A stretch of 64,000 nt of DNA from Membranipora membranacea (taxonomy: Eukaryota > Bryozoa > Gymnolaemata > Cheilostomatida > Membraniporidae), in contig OU612068.1 in NCBI GenBank assembly GCA_914767715.1, forward strand, positions 124,001 to 188,000. Direction: 5' to 3'. Numbering within the stretch: position 1 is the first letter of the stretch; the number at the start of each line of letters is the position of its first letter. Both the position numbers and the translations under genes were made by a program. Below, piece by piece: positions 264-63,700 of the stretch. The notes under the pieces were generated by a model. The model worked only from the letters and a program-made list of their open reading frames with translations. It had not been told where the DNA came from and searched no databases.

Positions 264-3200
264 CGTAGACGCCTTCTATGAGAAGGCCGATGAAGAAGCT
301 GAGTATATTCTCCATTCCTGCTTTATCCAGATCTTTACATATGAGAGTTTTGAATTTCATTTTATTGAGTCTCTCCCCGATTTTGAGTATGTCGTTGGGT
401 GGAGCTCCCAGTTTCTTCTCATTCATATATTTACCGTTGCCGATTAGTAAGGCTACTTTATCTTTAGCTGTGTACTTGAGGTCTTCTAGGATACAAACAG
501 ATCAACCATCGATTAAAATATGACAGATAAAATAGCCATTCCAAGTACTACACAGGGAGTATATATTGGTATGTATGACATTACAGTGTGATTGATATGC
601 CTTCATGTCTTTAGATTTAGTTCCGAATATAACGGGGTCTTTTGTACACAATATGAAATGAGATTAGATCAGATCCATTAGAATACTGAGGTGTTTAAAG
701 TATAACACACATGTACCTGGCTGATATTGCGGTGCAGTAGGAGCGGTTGGTAATCCAGGCTCTGGTACTATTGGTGGAGCAGATCCATTTTCTGCTGGAA
801 ATACACAAACAACCACAATTATCCATATAACATGTATAAATTATCCATATAACATGTATGAATTATCTAATCATCCATATAACATGTGTTAATTATCTAA
901 TCATCCATATAACATGTATGAATTATCTAATCATCCATATAATATGTATGAATTATCGCACTGTTGCTGAGAGTTTGTAGCTCTTATCTGAGGACACCAC
1001 CAGAGTTTTAGAGCTTAGTCTACATGATGACAACAGTACTCTACAGTAATCTTAGTATGTCTAATAGTAAGTCTAACTGCTCAGGCGCCTGCGATGCAAG
1101 ATAGCGGCAATATAGCGGTATTACATTACCAAACATTCATGGCGAAAATGAGTGTTTGATAATATAATGTCATTATAATGTCAGCAGTGATAAGACAACT
1201 GATTTTAATCAACCTTTTTAATCAACTAACTTGCCTGGCAGCGGTCTGAGCAGTTAGACGAACTAAGCAGGGATGACAGATCTGAAAGTTTGACTTGTTC
1301 TTACTCATACACTCACCTGGTTCTATGGTGATATGACAAAGGTCTGTGTATATCTGATTAAGAATGTTACATATGCTACATACAATATATCCATCACTCA
1401 ACCATCTACAATAATAGATCACAGTGTTTTACTGTATATATCCTACAATAATAGATCACAGTGTTTTACTGTATATATCCTACAATAATAGATCACAGTG
1501 TTTTACTGTATATATCCTACAATAACAGATCACAGTGTTTTACTGTATATATCCTACAATAATAGATCACAGTGTTTTACTGTATATATCCTACAATAAT
1601 AGATCACAGTGTTTTACTGTATATATCCTACAATAATAGATCACAGTGTTTTACTGTATATATCCTACAATAACAGATCACAGTGTTTTACTGTATATAT
1701 CCTACAATAATAGATCACAGTGTTTTACTGTATATATCCTACAATAACAGATCACAGTGTTTTACTTTATATATCCTACAATAATAGATCACAGTGTTTT
1801 ACTGTATATATCCTACAATAATAGATCACAGTGTTTTACTGTATATATCCTACAATAATAGATCACTGTGTTTTACTGTATATATCCTACAATAAAAGAT
1901 CACAGTGTTTCACTGTATATATCCTACAATAATAGATCACAGTGTTTTACTGTATATATCCTACAATAAAAGATCACAGTGTTTTACTGTATATATCCTA
2001 CAATAAAAGATCACAGTGTTTTACTGTATAAATCTTACAATAATAGATCACAGTGTTTTACTGTATATATCCTACAATAATAGATCACAGTGTTTTACTG
2101 TATATATCCTACAATAAAAGATCACAGTGTTTTACTGTATATATCTTACAATAATAGATCACAGTGTTTTACTGTATATATCCTACAATAAAAAATCACA
2201 GTGTTTTACTGTATATATCCTACAATAATAGATCACAGTGTTTTACTGTATATATCCTACAATAATAGATCACAGTGTTTTACTGTATATATCCTACAAT
2301 AATAGATCACAGTGTTTTACTGTATATATCTTACAATAATAGATCACAGTGTTTTACTGTATATATCCTACAATAATAGATCACAGTGTTTTACTGTATA
2401 TATCCTACAATAATAGATCACAGTGTTTTACTGTATAATTCCTACAATAAAAGATCACAGTGTTTTACTGTATATATCCTACAATAATAGATCACAGTGT
2501 TTTACTGTATATATCCTGCAATAACAGATCACAGTGTTTTACTGTATATATCCTACAATAATAGATCACAGTGTTTTACTGTATAATTCCTACAATAAAA
2601 GATCACAGTGTTTTACTGTATATATCCTACAATAATAGATCACAGTGTTTTACTGTATAATTCCTACAATAAAAGATCACAGTGTTTTACTGTATATATC
2701 CTAAGGTTAGTAGGTCATGAATATAAAGGTGTATGGGTAGACTAAAGATAATATATTTATAAGGTATCATTTCCCGGAATGTGAGACACAACATACAGTG
2801 GATTTGGGCAAAGGAAGATTAAGTTTGGAATTTCAAGTAATGTAGGGTTAACAAGTTGAGGGGAATTGTGATAAAGGGAATGAGCAACAAGGTATATAAA
2901 TGTGAGACAGGCAGAATTTTTGTTTTTTTGAAAAGTTGAACGGTATGCTCATTGAGAGGTTTATTGAAGGCATATCTCACTAATCTCTTTTGGAGGATAG
3001 CGATCTTATCGAAACGGGTTTGTGGCGCGTTGCCCCAAGTTCCAATGCAATACACAATTTTACTGTGTGCTAATGCATTGTGAAGCAAGATCATGGCTGA
3101 GGGGGGTACAATTTTGTAGTAATCTAAATAAAAGTCCAGAAATTTTGTTTAAAGAGTTTCTCAAATCAGAAATATGAGCTTCCAGCTTAGTGTTTGATTT

Positions 3201-60700: not shown

Positions 60701-63700
60701 TAGCCTCAGTTCTTATATATCTTATTGGAACAGGGAAGGGTCTAGTATTTAGTTTATTCTTGTGTATCATAGTTTGAAGAGGGGCGGTAGAGATGTGCAT
60801 GTTTGAGAATGAAAACTTATCTCACTGCTCGAATAATGTGATTAATACAAATATATGTTAGCTCAAATGGTACAATTTATATTGGTTGAGATTTTGTTAT
60901 CTACAGTGCTCGCTTATAAATATTAAGAATATTGACAAATAAAAAAGTGATAGAATGTGAGAGCCAATAAATGATGAGTTAGATTGTTGAGGGATAACTG
61001 ATGATTATTACAGCTGGGACGGAGATGATGATGATGAGCCGTTATCTCACTGGAATCTTAGGAAATGTTCTGCTGCCGCTCTCGATGTGTTAGCTAATGT
61101 ATTTAGAGATGATTTACTTCCTATACTTCTACCTATCCTCAAAGAGACACTATTCCATGAGGTGTGGGAAGTTAAGGAAAGTGGTATACTGGTGCTGGGA
61201 GCCATCGCTGAAGGTTTGTAATGTACTCTGCTCTTAGTTTAGGTATTGACATTTTCATTATCAACCCCAGCAATGTTGGGGGTGTGGCTTAGATCGAAAT
61301 GACAGCAACACAGGCAATATATGAGAGAGGAGATCTGCAGCATGTACTGTACCATTATTTGTAAAGCGTACACAGTGCTGACGGACGGTATATGACTAGT
61401 TATGTTATATTTGTAGGTTGTATGGGTGGTATGATACCACATCTCGATATATGACTAGTTATGTTATATTTGTAGGTTGTATGGGTGGTATGATACCACA
61501 TCTCGATATATGACTAGTTATGTTATATTTGTAGGTTGTATGGGTGGTATGATACCACATCTCGATATATGACTAGTTATGTTATATTTGTAGGTTGTAT
61601 GGGTGGTATGATACCACATCTCGATATATGACTAGTTATGCTATATTTGTAGGTTGTATGGGTGGTATGATACCACATCTCGATATATGACTAGTTATGT
61701 TATATTTGTAGGTTGTATGTGTGGTATGATACCACATCTCGATATATGACTAGTTATGTTATATTTGTAGGTTGTATGGGTGGTATGATACCACATCTCG
61801 ATATATGACTAGTTATGTTATATTTGTAGGTTGTATGGGTGGTATGATACCACATCTCGATATATGACTAGTTATGTTATATTTGTAGGTTGTATGGGTG
61901 GTATGATACCACATCTCGATATATGACTAGTTATGTTATATTTGTAGGTTGTATGGGTGGTATGATACCACATCTCGATATATGACTAGTTATGTTATAT
62001 TTGTAGGTTGTATGGGTGGTATGATACCACATCTCGATATATGACTAGTTATGTTATATTTGTAGGTTGTATGGGTGGTATGATACCACATCTCGATATA
62101 TGACTAGTTATGTTATATTTGTAGGTTGTATGGGTGGTATGATACCACATCTCGATGTATGACTAGTTATGTTATATTTGTAGGTTGTATGGGTGGTATG
62201 ATACCACATCTCGATATATGACTAGTTATGTTATAATTGTAGGTTGTATGGGTGGTATGATACCACATCTCGATATATGACTAGTTATGTTATAATTGTA
62301 GGTTGTATGGGTGGTATGATACCACATCTCGATATATGACTAGTTATGTTATAATTGTAGGTTGTATGGGTGGTATGATACCACATCTCGATGACTTAGT
62401 ACCGTACCTTATAGAGAGATTATCAGATAAGAAAGCTTTAGTTAGATCTATTACCTGCTGGACCCTCAGTAGATATGCTCACTGGGTAGTGGGTCAGGGA
62501 CAAGAGAAATATCTCAAGCCCCTAATGACCGAGGTAAGAAACACATTGTTATTACTCAGCTCTCACTTATCATGAGCTAAGGCTTCTGCTCAGTAATCAG
62601 GAGCTAAGGCTTCTGCTCAGTAATCACTAATCAGGAGCTACGGCTACGACTGTATATATATATCTCCTAATTTGTATTCCATCTGTTTGTAGTTTACTTC
62701 CTGTGACAATTTTCATTTCCTTATTATGGCCAATGGTTTGTTTATTCATTGGTGTGCCTGCCTTGGCACATAATGATATTGTTATGTCTAAATACAGTTT
62801 AATTAATTGAAGTTACTGAAGCGGATACTTGATGCCAATAAGAGAGTACAGGAAGCAGCGTGTTCAGCTTTCGCTACATTGGAGGAGGAGGCGTGTACTG
62901 AACTAGTACCTTATCTTCAGTATATACTAGAGACTCTTGTATACGCATTCAGTAAATATCAACATAAGAATCTGCTTATATTATATGATGCTATCGGTAC
63001 TCTCGCAGATTCTGTTGGTCATCATCTCAATAAACAGGTTAGTACAGTACTCACTGCTAAGGTAGTACAGTACTTCACTCTAATTTAACTTTGGTTCTGT
63101 ATTCGGTCTTAATCCACTCATTATTTTCATGGATTAAATGAAGCGCTTTGTTGGTTCTGAAAATCAATCAATCAATACCTGAAACATATATATCATATCC
63201 GATGATATATATTATGTGGATGAGAGGAACATATCTAGCATATGGCTATTTATGTATAGTTCCTGTACCGCATTTCTCATCTTCGATTGATCAACAATTT
63301 CAGAATGTGTTAAAGCTGACCCTGTAAAAGCTTTGCCTGAGTTTTTGAAGGTTGTTACTGTGACGTTGATTAATGCATAACTTAAAAGCTGCCAGATTTT
63401 TAGCTTTCTCATGATCCTGACACAATGTTTTATACTGATGGCATATCACCACAAATAGCCATGCCATGTAATTGACCACTGATCCATAAATGCATATCAT
63501 ATGTTATACCTGATCATATGACCCACAAACTGAACAGAAATTTGTTACCTGATTTATATTCTAGTCCAGTAAGTCTATCTTCCTCTCGGTCAAATATACC
63601 TTCAATAATAAATTATAGTTGTTGGCTACTTCGTTTTGTGGAGTCGTCCATTGTTTAGACGACTTCTAATACTTCCATGCTTGCTGAGAACCTGTATAAT

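Follow-up and report, generated by a model that had tools for sequence, protein, structure and literature searches.

Mirage-like minisatellites at exon–intron junctions in a 64-kb window of an animal genome

In a 64,000-nucleotide stretch of animal DNA (contig OU612068.1, positions 124,001 to 188,000; hereafter the window), eight of the forty-four introns that could be resolved have a splice site inside or adjoining a minisatellite. These eight belong to ARIH2, TNPO1 and two EPHX-like genes. The arrays are a new occurrence, in what appears to be another animal, of a structure known from amphioxus as the 'mirage'. We think it likely that they are mirage-type minisatellites: duplications laid over existing junctions and tolerated there, with the exon-proximal copy being the one that is spliced.

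Splice sites in and beside tandem arrays

Gene identities come from sequence comparison with solved structures and protein databases, and homology-anchored gene models were rebuilt by splice-aware protein-to-DNA alignment. The forty-four introns comprise eleven each in ARIH2 and TNPO1, two in eL13, and five in each of the EPHX-like genes A, B and C and in a Kv3-like channel. The donor of the first intron is uncertain in both EPHX-A and EPHX-B; the two introns were retained in the counts. A partly resolved MALT1-like gene was left out of all intron and array counts, which come from one window and one haplotype. Arrays were detected with Tandem Repeats Finder (TRF; score at least 50, period at least 10). 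Those with a period below 10, overlapping TRF rows of one array, and arrays outside the forty-four introns (i.e. in the MALT1 region, untranslated regions and intergenic sequence) were removed before counting.

Junction arrays make up eight of the twenty-seven intronic arrays. They sit at six donors and two acceptors, with units of 23–59 bp; seven strictly span the junction and one abuts it.

31756..31814, minus strand: ARIH2 intron 3 donor array, 2 copies of 30 bp (TRF and spliced alignment); unit of 20 nt exon tail and 10 nt intron head; used donor 31794, in the exon-proximal copy
30109..30237, minus strand: ARIH2 intron 4 donor array, 4.8 copies of 27 bp (TRF and spliced alignment); begins only 2 nt before donor 30235, with AG/GTAAGT in every copy
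29241..29467, minus strand: ARIH2 intron 6 donor array, 5 identical 45-bp copies (TRF and spliced alignment); 29 nt of exon tail per copy; used donor 29438
27175..28125, minus strand: ARIH2 intron 9 donor array, 25.7 copies of 37 bp (TRF and spliced alignment); about 30 nt of exon tail per copy; used donor 28095
49777..49921, minus strand: EPHX-like gene C intron 4 donor array, 3.9 copies of 37 bp (TRF and spliced alignment); unit of 13 nt exon and 24 nt intron; donor 49908
45243..45305, minus strand: EPHX-like gene B intron 2 acceptor array, 2.1 copies of 31 bp; acceptor 45248/45249
61389..62392, plus strand: TNPO1 intron 9 acceptor array, 17 copies of 59 bp (TRF and spliced alignment); unit of 27 nt intron and 32 nt exon head; the used acceptor is the last copy, with exon 10 from 62361
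63040..63083, plus strand: TNPO1 intron 11 donor array, 2 imperfect 23-bp copies; donor 63038, the array starting right behind the donor GT (the abutting case)

Most units, read in register, hold an exon edge, the splice site and an intron edge. A sequence-only reading of this DNA had listed nine array-borne splice sites. Six are confirmed here (the donors of ARIH2 introns 3, 4, 6 and 9, the EPHX-C donor 49908 and the acceptor of TNPO1 exon 10), while the EPHX-B intron 2 acceptor and the TNPO1 intron 11 donor extend that list. Two more of the nine, acceptor 1405/1406 and donor 5275/5276 of the MALT1-like gene, are probably junction arrays as well; the arrays are clean, with exon ends unanchored by homology.

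1406..2703, minus strand: MALT1-like probable acceptor array, about 35 copies of 37 bp, ending in TATTGTAG; acceptor 1405/1406
5058..5297, minus strand: MALT1-like probable donor array, 8 copies of 30 bp (22 nt exon plus GTAATTTT); donor 5275/5276

No MALT1 homologue that could anchor these exon ends was found at E 1e-6. The ninth site, a terminal acceptor of the Kv channel in the array at 20857–21321, found no support: the alignment stops at 19641, and the adjacent upstream open frame terminates ahead of the array.

The genes that carry the confirmed junction arrays, together with EPHX-like gene A, were aligned as follows.

22877..32852, minus strand: ARIH2 coding region, 12 exons and 11 introns (spliced alignment)
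35584..39877, minus strand: EPHX-like gene A as aligned, counted with 5 introns
41084..46731, minus strand: EPHX-like gene B as aligned, 5 introns; first-intron donor uncertain
48705..54660, minus strand: EPHX-like gene C as aligned, 5 introns
54756..63798, plus strand: TNPO1 coding region as aligned, 11 introns; start codon not included, exon 12 end uncertain

TNPO1 extends beyond the window edge. The aligner placed a doubtful 4-nt exon inside the first intron of EPHX-A, and no TRF array of score at least 50 was found in the introns of this gene. The three EPHX-like epoxide hydrolase genes lie consecutively on the same strand (35584–54660), and exon 2 of B and C encodes a near-identical peptide. 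EPHX-C intron 1 holds a reverse transcriptase in two open frames (52159–54067), with Pfam RVT_1 in both; a weak RVT_1 match (19.1 bits, curated cut-off 29.6) also lies inside the MALT1-like gene at 3164–3448. Near ARIH2, a 29-bp × 5 array (22957–23099) stops 14 bp short of the last acceptor, its gene-strand consensus unit including GTAAGATG, and a 37-bp × 4 array (32987–33135) lies directly upstream of the start codon. Four arrays of the window (starting at 1406, 27175, 32987 and 49777) have units of 37 bp. The GC content of the window is 33–41 per cent in 4-kb steps.

Copy usage, splice signals and unit sequence

At all eight junctions the exon-proximal copy continues the conserved protein, as judged by protein homology. 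A further comparison comes from P0002, a 251-aa protein on a 1057-bp JGI contig that is 99 per cent identical to the window ARIH2 over 240 columns. The contig is too short for introns, so P0002 is most likely a transcript, and its join is the predicted join at ARIH2 introns 3 and 4. P0002 ends two bases before the end of ARIH2 exon 6 (29439–29548), inside the exon tail repeated by the 45-bp array, and its contig may break at this repeated sequence.

On a simple motif score, inner sites equal or come near the used site in most copies. Among the first eight of ARIH2 intron 9, two score lower, and fourteen inner acceptors of TNPO1 intron 9 slightly outscore the used one. As inner and used sites score about equally, it is probably position that decides between them. 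Exon definition ('shortest exon wins') appears the likeliest reason for use of the outer copy, and it would fit all eight cases.

The earlier statement that copies retain GT or AG holds for most copies in register and fails for some. Among array rows, the dinucleotide is kept in ARIH2 introns 3 (2/2), 4 (5/5) and 6 (5/5), in EPHX-C (4/4), EPHX-B (2/2) and TNPO1 intron 9 (17/17), and in 7/8 rows of the MALT1 donor array. Over printed rows, flank rows included, the counts are 23/27 for ARIH2 intron 9 and 33/36 for the MALT1 acceptor. In TNPO1 intron 11 the signal is present in the used copy only, the second copy being shifted.

Retention in most copies is what one might see if the arrays were kept by selection, with the extra donors and acceptors buffering or regulating splicing. 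The same explanation could draw on ARIH2 introns 3 and 4, where use of the next copy would insert 10 and 9 residues per copy in frame, and on ARIH2 intron 9, whose donor motif shows less variation than the remaining unit positions. Against it, use of the next copy would bring a stop or frameshift in five of the seven arrays scored (this scoring excludes MALT1 and also TNPO1 intron 11, which lacks a GT in the tested register). Variation among inner copies (splice motif/rest of unit) in the four large arrays is 0.019/0.052, 0.033/0.013, 0.032/0.027 and 0.012/0.003, so that the motif is less variable than the rest in one array and more variable, i.e. no better kept, in three. Nothing here clearly indicates that inner sites are under selection. 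The suggestion that the arrays buffer or regulate splicing is therefore disfavoured, and we regard it as very unlikely.

The EPHX genes give some indication of age. Core intron positions are common to A, B and C, and of their introns B intron 2 and C intron 4 alone carry junction arrays; these arrays are therefore most simply read as younger than the introns that carry them. Comparing eight junction with eighteen internal arrays (the internal array of the last ARIH2 intron left out), the median match is higher at junctions (96.5 versus 86.5, P = 0.03) and the units are longer (34 versus 22, P = 0.048). Copy number is alike in the two groups (P = 0.66).

Units of the different arrays do not form one mobile family, as the sequence-only reading had also concluded. 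Among forty-five unit pairs from ten arrays, the best local score was 10.0, where the 99th percentile after shuffling was 9.88. The median was 7.0 versus 6.0 in shuffled pairs, a small excess that would be expected from the splice consensus common to the units. Introner elements are a single dispersed sequence family common to many introns, and the junction-array units here are not of one family. A search for structured RNA gave no Rfam match at the gathering threshold, and ARAGORN with bacterial settings found no tRNA.

Could the arrays be products of assembly? Nothing seen here points that way, although such repeats do misassemble and one amphioxus case was aberrantly assembled (PMC3087553). 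Variant units occur in runs, as in real minisatellites, with one change common to the last three TNPO1 copies, and the pattern is found at ten separate loci, MALT1 included. We consider assembly artefacts extremely unlikely and take the arrays to be real, as first claimed.

Junction placement and chance

The number of arrays at junctions was compared with a seed model, in which each array starts as one unit at a random intron position and is allowed to overhang the exon. With seeding in each array's own intron, 2.85 of the twenty-seven arrays are expected at junctions and eight are observed (P = 0.0023); with pooled introns the expectation is 2.40 (P = 0.0016). Arrays with units of at least 20 bp give 8/21 (P = 0.0009), those with at least three copies 5/14 (P = 0.016) and those with fewer than three 3/13 (P = 0.058). 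Removing the abutting array at 63040 leaves 7/26 (P = 0.0089), and other TRF cut-offs (30–200) give P values of 0.002–0.02. Overlap with junctions is thus commoner than random seeding predicts, which agrees with the earlier observation. The excess is modest and was tested after being noticed; the P values are optimistic, since the pattern was seen before testing and in one window.

This excess is the main argument for a mutational hotspot at junctions, promoted for example by R-loops, paused polymerase or bound U1, which the sequence-only reading had put forward in the form of a junction-biased process. The idea retains some standing, and it is compatible with duplication over existing junctions. 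Much of the signal lies in ARIH2 (4/8, expected 1.09, P = 0.0049), however, and it weakens without this gene (4/19, expected 1.76, P = 0.079). A near copy of the junction 24-mer was found within 100 bases on the intron side at six of eighty-eight junctions, compared with about 7 per cent of 3200 random intron positions, so that a near copy is no likelier beside a junction than elsewhere in an intron (this control used an earlier placement of the last ARIH2 acceptor). The seed test and the near-copy control disagree because an array overlaps the exon by part of one unit only. Hairpin-driven slippage was also rejected as a cause: across twenty-nine arrays with units of at least 18 bp, units are no more prone to pair with themselves than intron sequence free of arrays (mean ranks of 0.42 in folding energy and 0.51 in stem length; Kolmogorov–Smirnov P = 0.13). 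A hotspot of this kind seems rather unlikely to us. That junctions are true hotspots, where tandem duplications arise at several times the neutral seeding rate, we judge unlikely.

Placement by chance alone, in an array-rich genome with short introns, is likewise compatible with duplication over existing junctions. Arrays occupy 13 per cent of intron bases, and the near-copy rate at junctions is that of random positions. Coverage is not the fair expectation, however, as long arrays cannot extend into exons; the seeding expectation of 2.4–2.9 is the appropriate one, and eight were observed. Chance as the whole explanation is possible but doubtful.

Several observations weigh against reading these arrays as tolerated duplications over existing junctions. 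Random seeding predicts only 2.4–2.9 junction arrays, so chance placement accounts for perhaps a third of them. In ARIH2 intron 9 the donor motif is less variable than the remainder of the unit, and the bare GT/AG is less variable than the rest in two of the four large arrays and more variable in two. The MALT1 sites, probable as they are, come from arrays whose exon ends homology does not fix. Splice usage is judged here from protein homology, and the genome that encodes P0002 may itself lack the arrays.

We nevertheless favour duplication over existing junctions. A 23–59 bp segment straddling, or starting at, a pre-existing exon–intron junction would duplicate in tandem, and the array would then grow, presumably by slippage or unequal exchange. 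Copies would accumulate on the intron side, leaving the coding exon intact as long as the spliceosome uses the exon-proximal copy. The duplications would be tolerated rather than selected, with the outer copy probably chosen among near-equal sites through exon definition.

Known boundary duplications and implications

The sequence-only reading knew of no established system of this kind, which is contradicted by mirages in amphioxus and by boundary repeats in human genes. Mirages are described as minisatellite-like duplications of intron–exon boundaries (PMC3087553, PMC3902484), in the genes Adh3, the globins BflGb6 and BflGb9, TnC and PGBD5 (the last two from PMC3902484). In these accounts the repeats span 5′ or 3′ boundaries, many copies keep GT/AG, and regular splicing is reported as undisturbed (PMC3087553, PMC3902484). 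Mirages are also described as unstable in length, between haplotypes or among somatic cells. The window arrays share the structural features: seven of eight span the boundary and one abuts it, both 5′ and 3′ boundaries are hit (six donors and two acceptors), and many but not all copies keep GT/AG. Units of 10–72 bp given for Adh3 are near the 23–59 bp found here, while those given for the globin mirages (about 150–160 bp) are longer. The mirages described are from cephalochordates, whereas the 8/44 introns here are apparently from another animal.

Comparison of ARIH2 speaks, at the level of protein identity, against Branchiostoma as the host. No Branchiostoma-named protein is among the best 120 of 647 matches listed, and the named matches among these 120 are at most 49 per cent identical, P0002 aside. 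Trees of ARIH2 and TNPO1, with no cephalochordate row, place the window proteins apart from the sampled animals, and the sister in the ARIH2 tree is a long-branched protein labelled bryozoan. We found no report under the name of mirages outside cephalochordates in the literature searched, which is weak evidence as subscription papers were thinly covered.

Tandem repeats with units of about 30 bp are also described at exon–intron boundaries of human segmental-duplication genes (PMC2812944). These are minisatellites like those of the window, but in that description they go with changed splicing and with newly arisen introns of young paralogues, whereas the window genes are conserved and their protein is kept. 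The Rogers model, as presented in PMC3087553, derives intron gain from tandem duplication of proto-splice sites. Duplicated AG/GT signals in the window are raw material of this sort; unlike in the model, the EPHX introns were already present in the paralogues. PMC4039745, on C. elegans, connects alternative splicing with a minisatellite; its relevant part does not describe arrays that cross splice sites.

If junctions were hotspots, a sizeable part of introns would carry competing near-identical splice sites, cells would rely on strict exon definition, and new introns would be supplied steadily by a mutational process linked with transcription or splicing. The arrays raise the question of how cells select one splice site among near-identical copies, and the seventeen nearly identical acceptors of TNPO1 and the four identical donor motifs of EPHX-C offer natural tests of exon versus intron definition. 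Boundary duplication bears on the mechanism of intron gain, and mirages at 8/44 introns in an apparent non-amphioxus animal suggest that boundary duplications be counted genome-wide in many animals.

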